From a bacterium (lineage in GTDB: Bacteria; Patescibacteriota; Saccharimonadia; Saccharimonadales; UBA4665), in the NCBI GenBank assembly GCA_021790875.1, contig JAJYFN010000002.1:1-63510 (forward strand): 63,510 nt of DNA. Direction: 5' to 3'. Made by a program: the position numbers and the translations under genes. The notes beneath the pieces are model-generated. The model did not search any database, was not told the origin of the DNA, and saw only the letters and a program-made list of their open reading frames with translations. Shown here in pieces: positions 10,986-39,276 of the stretch (positions are counted from its first letter, which is position 1; each line of letters opens with the position of its first letter).

Positions 10986-11564
10986 ATGTATCTAGTTGGT
11001 ATTGACGAAGTTGGACGTGGCGCACTTGCCGGACCGCTAGTTGTGGGTGCGGTCGTGCTTAATCAGCCAATCTCAGGCTTGCGTGATTCTAAAGTCTTAA
11101 GCCGTAAACAGCGCACCGTCTTAAATGAGCTCATTATTAAAAGTGCTAAATATGTTGGCCTGGGTTGGGTAAGCAGCAAAGAACTTGATGCTATTGGGCT
11201 GAGTCAGGCGCTAACGCTGGCTGCAACGCGCGCACTAAGTGATCTAAACCTAGAACCAATCCGTTACATCTTAGATGGCAATTATAATTACCTATCTGCT
11301 GCCCACACGCCGTTTGAGCTAATCATTAAAGGTGATGCTCTAGTACCTGCGATTAGTGCCGCCTCAATTGTCGCTAAAGTGGCTAGAGATAATTACATGT
11401 TCGAACTTGATAAAGAGTTACCCGAGTACGGCTTTAAAAACCACGTTGGTTACGGCACAAAAGAACATCTTAATGCGATCGTGCGCTCAGGAGCAAGTAT
11501 TGAGCATCGCAAAAGTTTTGAACCACTTAAGTCACAACTTAGTTCTGATGGTAGTAGTCTTTGA
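10986..11564 (+). CDS. rnhB: Ribonuclease HII
   Basis: GIDEVGRGALAGPLVVGAVVL, DSKVLSRKQR, ISAASIVAKVARD, YGFKNHVGYGT. Confidence 0.95.
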   Translation: MYLVGIDEVGRGALAGPLVVGAVVLNQPISGLRDSKVLSRKQRTVLNELIIKSAKYVGLGWVSSKELDAIGLSQALTLAATRALSDLNLEPIRYILDGNYNYLSAAHTPFELIIKGDALVPAISAASIVAKVARDNYMFELDKELPEYGFKNHVGYGTKEHLNAIVRSGASIEHRKSFEPLKSQLSSDGSSL

Positions 11565-14112
11565 GCGCCTTAAGGTCTCGTTCGCGCCAGAGTGCCTGCC
11601 AGGTAATAGTTTCAATGGCCTGGTTTAAGGGTCGAGCAAAGCTAGGCGATAAGCGATCTTGAAAGAACTTCTCAAAATCTGGCAGAAAAGCTAAATCACT
11701 AAAGCCACGTGCCACATAACGCGGCATCATAAAGAAGCTAAGGTCTGAACCAAGGTTGGTCTCTAGCCAAGTCCAGTGGTCTTTAACCCATTGCCAGGTT
11801 GCAAGTTTAGCGTGGCGGTTCGCAAAGCTATCGCTAACCCAATAAGCGACGTCTTGTAAACGGACTTTATCGGTCGTAATTAAATCAAGTGCCCGCTTAA
11901 TTAATTCGGGCTGCTTAAAATTAGTTAAGGCTGCCGCTAAAGCCAGACGCTCCTCGCTATTAGTGCTAAAGTCATGCATCTTAAGTAGCGTTTCAAATTC
12001 CGCCTTGCCACCATAGCGGGCGATTGTCGGGTAAATAATGGGACGGATATCTGGATGAATTAACTCTTGATCGCGCTTAGCAAAACGATCCTTAACCTGC
12101 TCTTGAGCAGCTTTAAGATTACTCATACAAGCTAATCCCAGTATTACCGGACGCAGTAATTTATCGAAATGAGTATCGCTTTCAAGCTCATCCCAACCGA
12201 GGCGAGCATGTTGTTTGGCAATCAGTTTATGAATTGAAGGGTTCATACTGTCGCGGAGTGCCTCATCATCATCGATGACGCAAGTTCTAAGAGCGGCAAT
12301 GTTGGCGGCAATCATCTCCCATACAACCTCGCTATCTTCTTGGGCGTAGGCGTTTAGGAGATCTAAGGCGTCAGTAGTGCTACTAAGACCGGCCTTAGCG
12401 GCTTCAAAACTATCGGCAATTAGACCAAGACGATCCAGCTCATTGAAAGCTAGATGGTTTGCTTTGAGTTGTGCGGTGATTAATTTTAAATGCGCCTGAT
12501 CATAAACCACACGGTAAAACGCACTGCGTCCAGTATTTAAAATCAGCGGGTCAGTAGCTTTAGGGGCGCTAAAGTGAATAACCTTTTCTTTTGCATCTAA
12601 GAGGGTGGCCTCAATATTTAGACTTGGTAGGAGTGGCAACGGCCATTTGGCTTCTTCGCGCTTGGCCTGAGGCGAAATATAAAAACGGCTTTGCGTAAGA
12701 CTTAGCTCTTTTGAGCTTGTTTTAACACTGAGCAAGGGATAACCAGACTGCATCGTCCAGGACGACATAAAGTCACTAACTGGTTTATGGGCGGTCTCTT
12801 CCCAGGCCTGCCACAGGTCCGCTGATACGGTATTGCCGTAGGCGTGCCGCTTAAGATAGGTCATTAGTCCAGCTCTAAAGTCATCCTTGCCTAAGTAGTG
12901 CATGAGCATAAAGAGCACGCTGGCACCCTTTTCGTAGCTGATGTTATCGAAGATGGTTCTAATTTCGTCAGGATGGTGAATTGCAACGTTAATCGGGTGG
13001 GTGTGTTCAAGCGAATCAAGCTTTAGGGCGGGCGCCTGCTCATCAACTAAGAACTGGACCCATATTTGCCACTCTGGAAAAAGTGCGTCCATTGCAACGT
13101 AGCTCATCAGCGAAGCGAAACTTTCATTTAGCCATAAATCGTTCCACCAGCGCATGGTCACTAAGTTACCAAACCACTGGTGCGTTAACTCGTGCGCAAT
13201 CACATTGGCAACGTACTGCTTCATATTGAGGCTGGTATTAAGCGGATCAACAATTAGGCCTTGTTCGCGGAAGGTAATGAGGCCCCAGTTCTCCATTGCA
13301 CCACTCGCAAAATCCGGCAGGGCGATTAGGTCACACTTGCTGAGTGGGTAAGCAATGCCAAAGTAATCATTATAAAAATCTAAAGTTTTAGTGGCAGTTT
13401 CAAGAGCGAACGCAGTATGCTCAACTAGGTCATATCTGGCATAGGTTCTCACTCTAACTCCAGACTTAGTCATAGCTTCGCGGTACTCAACCTTACCAAT
13501 AATGAAGGCGAGTAAGTAAGTGCTCATCTTTGGGGTCGGTGCAAAGACGTATTCCGTTAAACCAGGCTCTAGCTCGTCACTACTAATGGGCTCGGTATTC
13601 GCAAGTACCGTTTCATCGCTTGGTGCAACTAGAGTTAATTCAAAAACCGCTTTCGCCTCAGGCTCATCAATGCAAGGCAGAACTTCACGCGCGTGATGGC
13701 TTTCAAACTGTGTCGCGAGGATCACTTCTTGTTTGCCGTCACGGTCGTAGTAGCAAGGATAGAGACCTTCCATGGGGCGGGTAATCTTGGCGCTGTAGTT
13801 AAGTTCAATCTCATATTCACCAGGATAAATTAAGCTATCTGAATGTAGCCTAACTTCGTTATATCCTGCATGAGACACAATGCGACTAATCTTAACGTCG
13901 CTTTTGCCATGACGCGACAAGTGTGTAATTTGTGCTGAAGTTATCTTTAACTTCTTAGAATGCAACACGATGCGTTTGGAAGGGCGGCCTTTTTTAACGC
14001 CTTTTAACAATAACGAACCCTGAAAATGCATGGTCGTTTTGTCTGGATGAAGGTAGAGTTTATATATTTCTGGCTCGAACTGCTCGAATAAGCGGCGGAC
14101 ATTACGACTCAT
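11539..14112 (-). CDS. M1-family (aminopeptidase N-like) zinc metallopeptidase
   Basis: GAMENWGLI; HELTHQWFGNLVTMRWWNDLWLNESFA (HExxH-x18-E). Confidence 0.95.
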   Translation of the reverse strand: MSRNVRRLFEQFEPEIYKLYLHPDKTTMHFQGSLLLKGVKKGRPSKRIVLHSKKLKITSAQITHLSRHGKSDVKISRIVSHAGYNEVRLHSDSLIYPGEYEIELNYSAKITRPMEGLYPCYYDRDGKQEVILATQFESHHAREVLPCIDEPEAKAVFELTLVAPSDETVLANTEPISSDELEPGLTEYVFAPTPKMSTYLLAFIIGKVEYREAMTKSGVRVRTYARYDLVEHTAFALETATKTLDFYNDYFGIAYPLSKCDLIALPDFASGAMENWGLITFREQGLIVDPLNTSLNMKQYVANVIAHELTHQWFGNLVTMRWWNDLWLNESFASLMSYVAMDALFPEWQIWVQFLVDEQAPALKLDSLEHTHPINVAIHHPDEIRTIFDNISYEKGASVLFMLMHYLGKDDFRAGLMTYLKRHAYGNTVSADLWQAWEETAHKPVSDFMSSWTMQSGYPLLSVKTSSKELSLTQSRFYISPQAKREEAKWPLPLLPSLNIEATLLDAKEKVIHFSAPKATDPLILNTGRSAFYRVVYDQAHLKLITAQLKANHLAFNELDRLGLIADSFEAAKAGLSSTTDALDLLNAYAQEDSEVVWEMIAANIAALRTCVIDDDEALRDSMNPSIHKLIAKQHARLGWDELESDTHFDKLLRPVILGLACMSNLKAAQEQVKDRFAKRDQELIHPDIRPIIYPTIARYGGKAEFETLLKMHDFSTNSEERLALAAALTNFKQPELIKRALDLITTDKVRLQDVAYWVSDSFANRHAKLATWQWVKDHWTWLETNLGSDLSFFMMPRYVARGFSDLAFLPDFEKFFQDRLSPSFARPLNQAIETITWQALWRERDLKALKDYYHQN

Positions 14113-14192: not shown

Positions 14193-14222
14193 TTGACGTT
14201 ACTAGCTAATGAATGCTAGTAT
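14193..14222 (+). promoter_or_regulatory. Putative nusA promoter (TTGACG-N18-TAGTAT with TGC extended -10)
   Basis: Hexamer match and spacing. Confidence 0.55.
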
Positions 14223-14233
14223 AAAGATAGTTA

Positions 14234-14261
14234 TCCGGCCGAGATTTAGGTCGGATTTTTT
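14234..14261 (+). terminator. Rho-independent terminator/attenuator hairpin in nusA 5'UTR
   Basis: TCCGGCC-GAGATTTA-GGTCGGA (7-bp stem with one G-U) followed by T6. Confidence 0.7.
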
Positions 14262-14298
14262 AATAGCTCGCAAGCAAAGGAAACAAGTTTAATTAATT

Positions 14299-15522
14299 AT
14301 GGATAACAATTTCGATTTCAAACAACTCAGTGTCGCCATTCGTTCGATTGCTGAAGAGAAGAACCTTCCAGAAGAGACCGTTCAGGAAGCAGTGGAGCAA
14401 GCTCTAGCTGCTGCTTACCGCCGTGATTACGGTGACCGCGACCAAGAGATTAGAGTTAAGATGAACTTAAACACTGGCGCCGTTGATGCCTACATCTCAA
14501 AAATCGTGGTTGAGACTGTTGAGAACCCAGCTTATGAAATTGCTTTAAGTGAAGCACAGCTGCAGCAAAAGAATATTAAACTTGGTGATTCTCTAGAAGT
14601 CCACCAGAAGGTCGAAAGCTTTGGCCGTGTCGCAGCCCAAACTGCCAAACAAGTCATCCTGCAGCGCCTGCGTGAAGCAGAGCGTGAGATCATTATGGTC
14701 GAATATGAAGATAAAATCGGCACAGTTATTAACGCCATCGTCAATCGTGTGGAAGGTAATGTCGTTAGAGTGGACCTAGGCAAGGCGCAAGGTATCATGC
14801 CACGCAGTGAACAGATTCAAGGCGAACGTTACTACCCTGGACAAAGAATTAAAGTCTATCTTAAAGACGTTGAGCGTGGTTTTCGTGGTCCGCAGCTCGT
14901 TGTTAGTCGTGGCAATAAAGAGTTCATTGAATGGCTCTTTAGAGGCGAAGTACCAGAAATGGAATCTGGCGCCGTTCAAATTAAGGAATTGGCGCGTGAG
15001 GCTGGCGTGCGGAGTAAGATTGCAGTCTATAGCAATGTTCCAGGCGTTGATCCAGTCGGGACGTTTGTCGGTGGTCACGGTACTAGAGTTAATGCCGTAA
15101 TGAGCGAAATTGGCGAACAGGAAAAGATTGACATCATTGTCTATAGCGACAACCCAGTGGAGTTTATTACAAACGCTCTTAGCCCAACTAAAGTAGTGAA
15201 GGTCACAATTGACGAGAACAGCAAACGCGCAGTCGTTAAAGTTCCCGAGGATCAGCAGAGTATTGCGATTGGTAAGGGTGGACAAAACGTCCGCCTAGCT
15301 AGCAAATTATCTGGCTATGAATTAGACATTGAAGCCGCTGAATCAAGCGAGGCTAGCGAAGCCCAACCGCAAGCGCAGCAGCAGCCAGAACAAGTCAAAG
15401 AACAAGTGGCGCCAGTTGTGGTCGCCAAGTCAACTACCCCCGGACGGATTAAGAAAAAGACTGAACTTGAGAGCAGTTTAATTGACGCAATTGAAGAAAG
15501 CGGCACGGAAACAGATAGTTAA
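14299..15522 (+). CDS. nusA: Transcription termination/antitermination factor NusA
   Basis: S1-KH-KH organisation; GVDPVGTFVGGHGTRVNAVMSEIGEQEKIDII; IGKGGQNVRLASKLSGYELDI. Confidence 0.95.
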   Translation: MDNNFDFKQLSVAIRSIAEEKNLPEETVQEAVEQALAAAYRRDYGDRDQEIRVKMNLNTGAVDAYISKIVVETVENPAYEIALSEAQLQQKNIKLGDSLEVHQKVESFGRVAAQTAKQVILQRLREAEREIIMVEYEDKIGTVINAIVNRVEGNVVRVDLGKAQGIMPRSEQIQGERYYPGQRIKVYLKDVERGFRGPQLVVSRGNKEFIEWLFRGEVPEMESGAVQIKELAREAGVRSKIAVYSNVPGVDPVGTFVGGHGTRVNAVMSEIGEQEKIDIIVYSDNPVEFITNALSPTKVVKVTIDENSKRAVVKVPEDQQSIAIGKGGQNVRLASKLSGYELDIEAAESSEASEAQPQAQQQPEQVKEQVAPVVVAKSTTPGRIKKKTELESSLIDAIEESGTETDS

Positions 15523-15549
15523 TTAGCACTCTTGACTGGTGAGTGCCAA
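15523..15549 (+). promoter_or_regulatory. CIRCE (HrcA operator) upstream of clpC
   Basis: TTAGCACTC-N9-GAGTGCCAA; one mismatch to consensus TTAGCACTC-N9-GAGTGCTAA. Confidence 0.9.
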
Positions 15550-15724: not shown

Positions 15725-18208
15725 ATGCTGCCAAATTCGCCAGACTTTCAAGAGTTTCGAAAACACTTAACTAATAATGCCCTGTTGTCGCTAAAGCATG
15801 CTGATGCGATTGCGCGCAGCTTTGGCAGCGCTTACGTTGGCACCGAACACCTGCTTCTAGGTGTCTTGGCGCAAGAGGGTAGCATGGGCGCTAAATTACT
15901 CGAACATGTTGGCGTAACCTTGGATCGGGCACGACTAGTGCTTAATCTAACCCCTAAAACTTTTGTTATTAATATGGGTGCTAAGGGATTAAGTGAAACG
16001 GCAAAGCATACCCTTAAAACGGCTTACGATATTGCTCAAGATTACTCACAAGACTTTTGTGGCACCGAGCACATACTCTACAGCATCTTAAGCCAACAAA
16101 AGGCCCGAGCCACTAAGCTCTTACGCGATATGAACGTGGACGTTAATGCGCTCACTCAAGAACTAGAGCAATTCCTTTCCCGTCAACAGTATGAAGAGCG
16201 AGAAGATGTCGGACCGCACAACGGGCGTCGTCCTAACAGTAAAAAGACGGCTCTCGATTTCTTTGGCACCGACTTAACCGCACTGGCCGCTGAAGGTAAA
16301 CTCGACCCAGTCGTCGGGCGTGAAGTTCAGATTAGCCGGATGATTACCATCTTAAACCGACGCACTAAGAACAACCCGGTCTTAATTGGCGAACCCGGGG
16401 TGGGCAAGACTGCGATTGTCGAAGGATTAGCCCAGCGGATTGTAAATGAAGAAGTGCCAGACAGCTTGTTAGGCAAGCGTATCATTATGATTGATCTCGC
16501 TGGCATGATCGCCGGTACTAAATACCGTGGTGAATTTGAAGACCGCCTTAAAAAGGTGATGCATGAGCTTGAACGCGATCAGAAAGCAATTGCTTTTGTT
16601 GATGAGTTACACCTGATCGTTGGGGCCGGCGCAGCCGAAGGGGCAATGGACGCTGGTAACATCCTAAAACCAGCCTTAGCGCGGGGCAAGATACGCTTCA
16701 TTGGCGCCACCACGACTGCTGAGTACACGAAGCATATTGAGAAAGATGCGGCTCTTGAGAGACGCTTCCAGCCAATCCAAGTGCCTGAAACTACTCCAAT
16801 TGAAACCCTGGCTATCTTAAAAGGTCTGCGCAAACGTTATGAACAATTTCATGGCGTCAGCATGAGCGACGAGGTGTTAGCCGATGCTGTAACGTTATCC
16901 AAGCGTTACGTGCAAGACCGCTACCTACCGGATAAGGCAATTGATTTAATTGACGAAGCCGCAGCCCACATTAGAGTTGAGCGTGTCAAAACCAGCCCTG
17001 AAGTCCGAAAATTAAATAAAGAGCTCCAACTCGTTAATTTACGTAAAGATGAAGCCAGCGAGAATGAAGATTACCAGCTAGCAGCGCATTACAAAACACG
17101 CGCCAGCCAGATTAGCGAGCAACTCAGCGCTCTTGAAGCAACCATTAAAAAAGATAAAGCGATTGCCTTAACGAGCGAAGATTTAGCCGACGTTATCTCC
17201 CGAATTACGGGTGTGCCGGTGAAAAAAGTAATTCGTTCCGAAGCAAAATATTTGCTCGATCTTGAGAAGATTATTGGGAAGTATATCATTGGCCAAAAAG
17301 AAGCCGTGTCTGCGGTCGCTAAAGCCGTCCGGCGCAACCGTAGCGGTATTGGTAGTGAAGCACGGCCCATTGGTTCGTTTATCTTTCTCGGTCCAACTGG
17401 CGTCGGCAAGACAGAGCTTGCCCGAGTCCTAGCCCGTGAATTTTTTGGCAGTGAAAACGCCTTAGTGAAGATCGATATGAGCGAGTTTGGTGAACACCAT
17501 AACGTTTCAAGACTCGTTGGAGCGCCAGCTGGTTATGTGGGTTACGATGACGGAGGTCAGCTAACAGATAAAATCCGCCGTCAGCCATATAGCGTGGTCT
17601 TATTTGACGAAATTGAAAAAGCCCATCCTGACGTTTTCCATATGCTGCTGCAGATTCTAGAAGATGGCAACTTAACTGATGCTAAAGGTCGCCGGATAGA
17701 CTTTACGAATACCATTGTCATCATGACGAGCAACGTGGGCGCCGATAAACTGCAAAAAGAAGCAAGCCTTGGCTTTAGAGGCGCGAGTAGTAATTCGTCT
17801 AAAGACGCTAAGCTAGCCAATATTAATTCTGAAAATGAGGCCATGGTACTTGATGAGCTGAAGAGAATGTTAAGACCAGAGCTCTTAAATAGGATCGATA
17901 AGGTTATTGTCTTTAACCCCCTATCTAAAGCTGACATTAAACACATCATCGATTTGCAGATTGAAGATTTAAGAATCCGACTGCGCCGCAAAGGTATTGG
18001 CTTGACGCTAACTTCTAAAGCTAAGGACTATTTGCTCGAGCACGGCTATGATGCCAAAAACGGTGTTAGACCGCTGCGTCGCCTGATTCAGGACACGATT
18101 GAAGACAAAATGGCACTAGAAGTACTTGACGAACACTACTCTAAAGGAGATATCATTCAGGTGGCAACCAAAAATGGCGAACTAGCTTATGCCACCCAGA
18201 ACGAATAA
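15725..18208 (+). CDS. clpC: ATP-dependent Clp protease ATP-binding subunit ClpC
   Basis: Two AAA modules ([33 protein letters not shown]), Clp N-domain repeats. Confidence 0.95.
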
Positions 18209-19235
18209 CCTCAAACCAACTCCAGCTCAATTTAGAAACCAGCTTCCATCGAAGCCGGCTAATTACTGGCTTTACGGTAGCTTTAGCTTAATTCTCGCTC
18301 TCTGCGCTGTTTTAGCCTGGGCACTATTTAACATTACGACGCTTAAGGACTGGTATGTTCTAGCCACCTATCACCCACCAGCTGTGATTACGCAACTGGC
18401 CGTTGACGACGGTATGACAAACTACGCTCGGCGCTTGTTTTATGTCAATAAGCCCCAGATTGAGAATAAATCCGTTTTTGCTACGAATTGTACTTCGAGT
18501 GATGTCTCAGCGCATGTCATTGGCTGTTATCACTCAGGAGATAATGGTATTTTCCTGCTAAATGTTACTGACCCGCGCTTAAATGGCATTATTGAAGTCA
18601 CGGCAGCTTATGAAATGTTGCACGCCGGCTACGCCAGGCTAAACAGTACTGAGCGCAACCAGCTAGATCAGGAGATGTGGCAGTATTACACTCAGGCTAA
18701 TATTAGTACCGCTATCAAGCAGCAAATGGCCTCTTACGCAATAAGTGAGCCTGGAGCACGCTACGATGAGCTGTACTCGGTCTTAGGGACAGAAGTTAAT
18801 ACATTGCCAGCGTCACTCGAAAATCACTTTAAACTCTACTTTAATGACCGTGCGGCGATAGTTAAGCAATATAACGGCTACGAAGGGTCGTTTACTTCAA
18901 TTGAAACAGCGATTAACACTTATAGTGCTGAACTGACCAGTTTGCGCGGACAAATTGACGCCCAAAAGAGCCAGCTTAATAGTTTGCTAAACAGCATTAA
19001 TGCCGAGCAGTCCGTCTTGAGTAACGAGAAGGCTAACGCTCAATTTGCCATCTATAACTCCGGCGTCGCCGGCTATAACGACCTAGTTAATCAATATAAT
19101 CAATTAGTGAATACCGTTCGCTCGGAGATTACGCAATATAACCAAATTGTTAGTGCCAGTAACGCTCTAGCAATTGAAGATCAGCAATTAGTCGCGGCAA
19201 TTACTTCCACGCCCAGCCAGCAAATTACTAAATAA
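18189..19235 (+). CDS. Membrane-anchored extracytoplasmic protein with YEMLH (degenerate HExxH-like) motif and C-terminal coiled coil
   Basis: N-terminal TM segment, [12 protein letters not shown], heptad-like C-terminal region; overlaps clpC 3' end by 20 nt. Confidence 0.65.
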
Positions 19236-38611: not shown

Positions 38612-38638
38612 TTAGCACTCTTGACTAATGAGTGCCAA
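38612..38638 (+). promoter_or_regulatory. CIRCE (HrcA operator) upstream of clpP
   Basis: TTAGCACTC-TTGACTAAT-GAGTGCCAA. Confidence 0.9.
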
Positions 38639-38658: not shown

Positions 38659-39276
38659 ATGATTTTAAACTATGACGATGTTAAAGCACAGGTCTTAATT
38701 CCAACAGTAATTGAGCAAGAAGGCCGTTATGAACGGGCTTACGATATCTACTCACGCCTCTTAAAAGAACGCATTATTTTCCTAGGTAGCGATATTAATG
38801 AGGCTAGCGCCAACATTGTGGTCGCCCAAATGTTGTTTCTGCAAGCTAGTGATCCTAAGAAAGATATCTTTCTCTACATTAACTCACCTGGCGGATCAGC
38901 TTACGACGCCCTAGCAATTTATGACACGATTCAGTATGTCAGCAATGACGTCCAAACGGTTGGGATTGGCGTTCAAGCCTCAGCTGCAGCCTTTATTCTA
39001 AGCAGTGGCACAAAGGGCAAGCGTTCATTGCTGCCTAATTCTACTGTCATGATTCACCAACCATCAAGTGGCACTCAAGGTAAGATTACAGATCAAGAGA
39101 TTACCTTAAGAGAAGGTCTGAGACTCAAGAAGGTCTTAGAAGAGATTATGGCGAAGAATACTGGCCAGCCGGTCGCCAAGATTCATACCGATATGGAGCG
39201 TGACAAATGGCTCTCAGCAGAAGAAGCTAAAAAGTACGGAATTGTCGATTCAATCTTCAAACCAATCAAAAAATAA
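38659..39276 (+). CDS. clpP: ATP-dependent Clp protease proteolytic subunit
   Basis: [38 protein letters not shown] (catalytic S), MIHQPSSG (catalytic H). Confidence 0.96.

Follow-up and report, generated by a model that had tools for sequence, protein, structure and literature searches.

The nusA gene of a Candidatus Saccharibacteria genome is preceded by a predicted promoter that runs almost directly into a terminator-like hairpin, and the sequence and conservation of this hairpin indicate that it very probably functions as an attenuator of nusA. By analogy with leaders described in other bacteria, the element is probably a minimal attenuator in which NusA-stimulated termination would limit nusA transcription, with NusA itself the likely controlling factor. 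A first-pass annotation of the DNA had proposed a NusA autoregulatory attenuator at this site, and that reading draws support from the conservation of the hairpin, the position of the promoter, and the parallels with B. subtilis and S. agalactiae.

The promoter and hairpin in the nusA leader

The stretch of DNA analyzed (the window; 63,510 nt) comes from a genome of 430 kb and 82% completeness, in which it is contig 11; the closest named relatives are MAGs of Candidatus Saccharibacteria. The gene order near nusA is rplS, rnhB, an M1 aminopeptidase gene, nusA, a clpB-like gene, an unassigned gene, and radA/sms. The gene upstream of nusA, annotated at first pass as divergent, is the M1 aminopeptidase gene, and the unassigned gene, a 348-aa ORF, matches nothing in Pfam or NCBIfam (Table 1). 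The window also contains two CIRCE-like operators, TTAGCACTC-N9-GAGTGCCAA, each with one mismatch (15523-15549 and 38612-38638; 0.01 expected by chance). They precede the clpB-like gene and a clpP-like gene (38659-39276), respectively, an arrangement that suggests an HrcA heat-shock regulon, and several relatives also have CIRCE-like sequences immediately 3' of nusA.

Table 1. Features of the nusA locus in window coordinates
Feature	Position	Strand	Basis or remark
M1 aminopeptidase gene, divergent from nusA	11539-14112	-	
Sigma70-type promoter, TTGACG-N18-TAGTAT, with TG immediately 5' of the -10	14193-14222	+	Sequence; position relative to hairpin kept in 90% of 83 relatives
-35 element TTGACG	14193-14198	+	
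-10 element TAGTAT, after an 18-nt spacer	14217-14222	+	
Predicted transcription start, 7-8 nt past the -10	14229-14230	+	From promoter
Terminator hairpin AUCCGGCC-GAGAUUUA-GGUCGGAU	14233-14256	+	Kept in 85 relatives; covariation in the outer pairs, an inner pair that is weak throughout
U-tract TTTTTT abutting the stem	14256-14261	+	Four U columns invariant, two at least 90%, in 79 aligned sequences
Remaining leader to nusA ATG, with purine-rich AAAGGAAA ribosome-binding-like stretch	14262-14298	+	
nusA, 407 aa, NusA N-terminal domain + S1 + KH domains	14299-15522	+	TIGR01953 (368 bits), PF08529, PF00575, PF13184
clpB-like gene, 3' of nusA	15725-18208		
348-aa ORF	18189-19235	+	

The promoter pair, hairpin, U-tract, and intervening distances reported at first pass are all present in the sequence. 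TCCGGCC-GAGATTTA-GGTCGGA-TTTTTT occupies 14234-14261, and an A-T pair (14233/14256) extends the stem. Folding of the predicted 34-nt leader RNA (14229-14262) gave the hairpin and no other structure, at -13.3 kcal/mol (z = -4.5), a better fold than that of 200/200 shuffles. A scan of the window gave promoter and terminator matches at a level not above that in shuffles, so the fold of a single sequence is weak evidence, and the weight of the argument rests on conservation. The hairpin model had a single match in the window (E 2e-7; next E 1.7). The nusA leader matched no Rfam family, whether riboswitch or other known leader RNA, and assignment of the hairpin to a known RNA family, RF01770 included, was rejected.

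Conservation and specificity for nusA

Sequences of nusA with its upstream DNA were taken from 80 named genome contigs and from the genus genomes, giving 85 loci after removal of duplicates. The hairpin and an accepted U-run were found at nusA in 84 of these, and in 85/85 if one interrupted U-run is allowed; the exceptional locus keeps the hairpin and has CTCTTTT where the U-run is expected. Conservation upstream of nusA in relatives, which the first-pass annotation had named as a check, thus extends throughout the order, and a chance terminator was rejected on these grounds. In 40 further genomes of the order, mostly from other families, the hairpin was present in 40/40 and a strict U-tract in 38. 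A related hairpin also occurs in the two genomes that belong to the class but not to the order. Within one family, the most divergent genera retain the position with an altered stem and U-tract; among them, one genome (locus L299, G459) has no clear element. The L299 leader instead carries a long inverted repeat, rich in G, where the hairpin would be expected, possibly a replacement, an insertion, or an assembly problem.

The hairpin consensus is [U/G][C/U]CG[G/A]CC-loop-GGUCG[G/A][A/C]-UUUUUU. In relatives, the stem core (C-G-[G/A]-C-C / G-G-[U/C]-C-G) and the U-tract are nearly constant, the loop (4-12 nt) is free to vary in sequence, and 18-152 nt separate the hairpin from the ATG. Information content reaches 1.1-2.0 bits per position in the 5' arm of the stem vs ~0.05 bits upstream of the promoter; conservation of the stem therefore does not merely reflect close kinship. 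Substitutions in the two outer stem pairs affect both partners (U-A to G-C, C-G to U-A), and these paired changes, in 25 cells, exceed those in every shuffle and every slid version. Several leaders with longer spacing (L046, L043, L066, L087, L062, and others) have an AGAGAC-like stretch after TTTTTTCAT, past the U-tract, and some longer-spaced leaders also carry TTACAATTTAGA farther on.

The promoter, too, keeps its place relative to the stem. A -35/-10 pair scoring at least 9/12 lies within 60 nt 5' of the stem in 90% of 83 loci, compared with 9% of shuffles. Of the 75 confident cases, 74 have 9-16 nt between the end of the -10 element and the stem, whereas the distances in shuffles are evenly spread. 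With the usual 7 nt from the -10 to the start, the stem would begin at about +3 to +9, and the predicted leader has no room for an antiterminator upstream of the hairpin. A start downstream of the hairpin had been raised at first pass as an outcome that would count against attenuation; as far as sequence can tell, a promoter held at a fixed distance 5' of the hairpin places the start upstream of it.

Within the window's genus, a covariance model of the hairpin identified one strong copy per genome, and 15/15 strong hits were at nusA (next best E 0.27). A wider regulon was rejected, given that strong hits in the genus genomes occur at nusA only; outside the order, the weaker hits lie at sites other than nusA and resemble ordinary terminators of similar sequence. 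In Saccharimonadales, 48/66 nusA leaders have a promoter followed immediately by a terminator, vs 0/341 other leaders at the same loci (p 8e-48), and in Patescibacteria outside the class the counts are 13/35 nusA leaders vs 1/207 others (p 2e-11); the Fisher p-values overstate the evidence because related genomes are not independent, although the contrast is still large, and the nusA fractions are lower bounds because the counts used simple ORF calling, with some starts misplaced, and simple consensus rules. The nusA terminators of Patescibacteria outside the class mostly have other stem sequences. Identity of the stem across the phylum was rejected, since in most other Patescibacteria the stem is different or no stem was found. 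In a few of these, for example L253 and L256, the nusA leaders have GGG...CCC stems resembling the canonical rimP-leader, and the nusA leader of another Patescibacterium (G110; L243, 275-388) matches L20_leader at 31.7 bits, below the cut-off of 58.7.

A probable minimal attenuator and its rivals

In the proposed mechanism, transcription would begin at about 14229, as placed by the promoter, and the first ~32 nt would fold as an intrinsic terminator; the sequence and its conservation are observed, and termination is predicted. Some polymerases would halt at the leader terminator and others would continue into nusA. By analogy, NusA would join the young elongation complex and assist the rather weak hairpin to complete. 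High NusA would then give more termination and less nusA mRNA, and low NusA more read-through; an antiterminator would not be required.

The stem itself has a constant imperfection. In 79 sequences, the fifth of its seven pairs is G-U (69), A-U (9), or a mismatch (1), and in none is it G-C, while the adjoining pairs are always G-C. Judged by eye, several stems in the divergent genera have a mismatch at the same position. Placing a G-C there would stabilize the hairpin by a computed 2.7 kcal/mol or so. Stability is also confined to a narrow range across the order, with the middle half of nusA hairpins between -11.0 and -10.4 kcal/mol vs -16 to -7.8 kcal/mol for the middle half of gene-end terminators from the same loci. 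The constant weak pair and the narrow stability fit a terminator tuned to partial efficiency. A protein that reads the stem sequence is the alternative explanation of both features, and the data do not separate the two.

Such a protein (NusG, a ribosomal protein, or a group-specific RNA-binding protein) would make the element a genuine nusA attenuator under a controller other than NusA. The near-invariance of CG[G/A]CC...GGUCG beside a freely varying loop exceeds the needs of a plain terminator and could reflect recognition by another factor, and NusG too stimulates intrinsic termination in B. subtilis (PMC8060035). We nevertheless regard this as unlikely. The promoter-terminator layout sets nusA apart from the other leaders tested, and this specificity points to the product of nusA as the source of the feedback. 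The layout recurs at nusA in other Patescibacteria with other stem sequences, so one factor that reads a given sequence cannot be what these leaders have in common. RimP, which had been named as the alternative for the rimP-leader (PMC2965389), is missing from 19/19 genus genomes. It is also quite improbable that the hairpin is a constitutive damper, stopping a fixed share of transcripts to hold nusA at a low, steady level without regulation. The narrow range of stabilities would fit a fixed read-through share, but a weaker promoter would achieve the same effect with less upkeep, and insensitivity to NusA would be surprising because NusA is a termination factor.

Two further readings were weighed. 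As the extreme 5' end of the predicted mRNA, it could be a stabilizing structure or a part of translation control, with the U-run incidental; this is most improbable given that the stem and the U-tract adjoining it are equally conserved, and that the start codon region is left free at a distance varying from 18 to 152 nt. The first-pass annotation had held in reserve a roadblock to antisense read-through from rnhB across the aminopeptidase gene, and the end of an upstream gene could call for a similar block. The ORF upstream of nusA is indeed co-directional in 19 of 72 relatives. However, it is divergent in the other 53, and the element stays at nusA and is the same in both arrangements, so its role cannot depend on one particular upstream neighbor; divergent leaders of other genes contain a terminator in only 2/130. 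The hairpin also lies past the promoter at a fixed distance, so a roadblock would stop nusA's own transcripts as well. The fallback therefore did not hold up, and a roadblock of either kind is scarcely credible.

Feedback by NusA remains the preferred reading. A broader and more speculative extension, which we consider possible but would not favor, is that feedback by a terminator directly behind the nusA promoter is widespread and perhaps ancestral, and persists at nusA even where rimP-nusA-infB has been broken up and RimP lost. Saccharibacteria might then have fixed one stem, with one pair kept weak, because NusA or NusA-bound polymerase reads its shape or sequence directly.

Comparison with known leaders of nusA operons

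One close parallel is the rimP-leader (Rfam RF01770; Naville and Gautheret 2010, PMC2965389), with which the Saccharibacterial element shares a lone hairpin, a conserved stem sequence, and NusA as the proposed factor. That account ranks the rimP-leader as the most ubiquitous attenuator and describes a terminator hairpin by itself, with GGGc...gCCC as the conserved stem, 4-130 nt ahead of the gene that opens the nusA operon; most species have no visible antiterminator, and NusA is the favored factor (PMC2965389). Its 5' arm is G-rich, whereas the CCGGCC...GGUCGG stem found in nearly the whole order has a C-rich 5' arm. The rimP-leader precedes rimP, the first gene of rimP-nusA-infB, whereas the Saccharibacterial hairpin lies directly before nusA, which stands alone. 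The RF01770 covariance model at its gathering score matched 0/19 genus genomes, and the window's genome gave no match at all, in what is a narrow test, given that only 1/14 control genomes passed the cut-off. A search for RimP_N was negative in 19/19 genus genomes and positive in the bacterial controls. With no RF01770 match, a different stem, and no rimP, the element would share the mode of action of the rimP-leader, but we do not assign it to that family. The absence of RimP from the genus, together with the location of nusA outside a rimP operon, removes the ambiguity of the rimP-leader over which operon product could act.

According to a review (PMC12288461, on Mondal et al. 2016), B. subtilis NusA autoregulates through NusA-stimulated termination in its leader. 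As in the mechanism proposed for Saccharibacteria, an intrinsic terminator in the 5' leader, there of ylxS(rimP)-nusA-infB, controls transcription into the operon; the increase in terminator efficiency by NusA is experimental in B. subtilis and predicted by analogy in Saccharibacteria, and the B. subtilis leader is 180 nt (PMC2965389) vs about 32 nt for the predicted Saccharibacterial terminated RNA. NusA is known to assist suboptimal terminator hairpins (PMC8060035). A nearly identical leader geometry is seen in S. agalactiae gbs0413-gbs0418 (rimP-nusA-infB), where RNA-seq located termination 31 nt past a mapped start and NusA feedback was proposed (PMC4448216), although this is a six-gene operon led by rimP in a different phylum. 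Our literature search found no start-site map, Term-seq, or other transcript data for Saccharibacteria.

NusA feedback on its own operon is also described for E. coli metY-nusA-infB, which, by the accounts that cite Bylund et al. 2011 (PMC4448216 and PMC6511841), NusA represses through RNA polymerase; the leader of that operon holds the tRNA gene metY and rimP precedes nusA, unlike the arrangement in Saccharibacteria. In the E. coli greA leader (GraL), an elongation factor likewise limits its own gene via a leader terminator, but the factor is different, further leader sequences are needed, and the RNA made from the leader has an additional role in trans (PMC6829880).

The NusA-attenuation mechanism is thus already known from the rimP-leader, B. 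subtilis nusA, and S. agalactiae. What is new is the group of organisms, a nusA without rimP, a different stem that is fixed and in which one weak pair is conserved, and the narrow stability; the literature search found no described attenuator in Saccharibacteria or other Patescibacteria. At ~32 nt, the predicted leader is near the minimum for an attenuator and would be a clean test piece for the help that NusA gives to terminators, and the hairpin could serve as a covariance-model marker of nusA leaders in such genomes. The proposal would widen the range of feedback attenuation by NusA to include Saccharibacteria and, judged by layout, other Patescibacteria.
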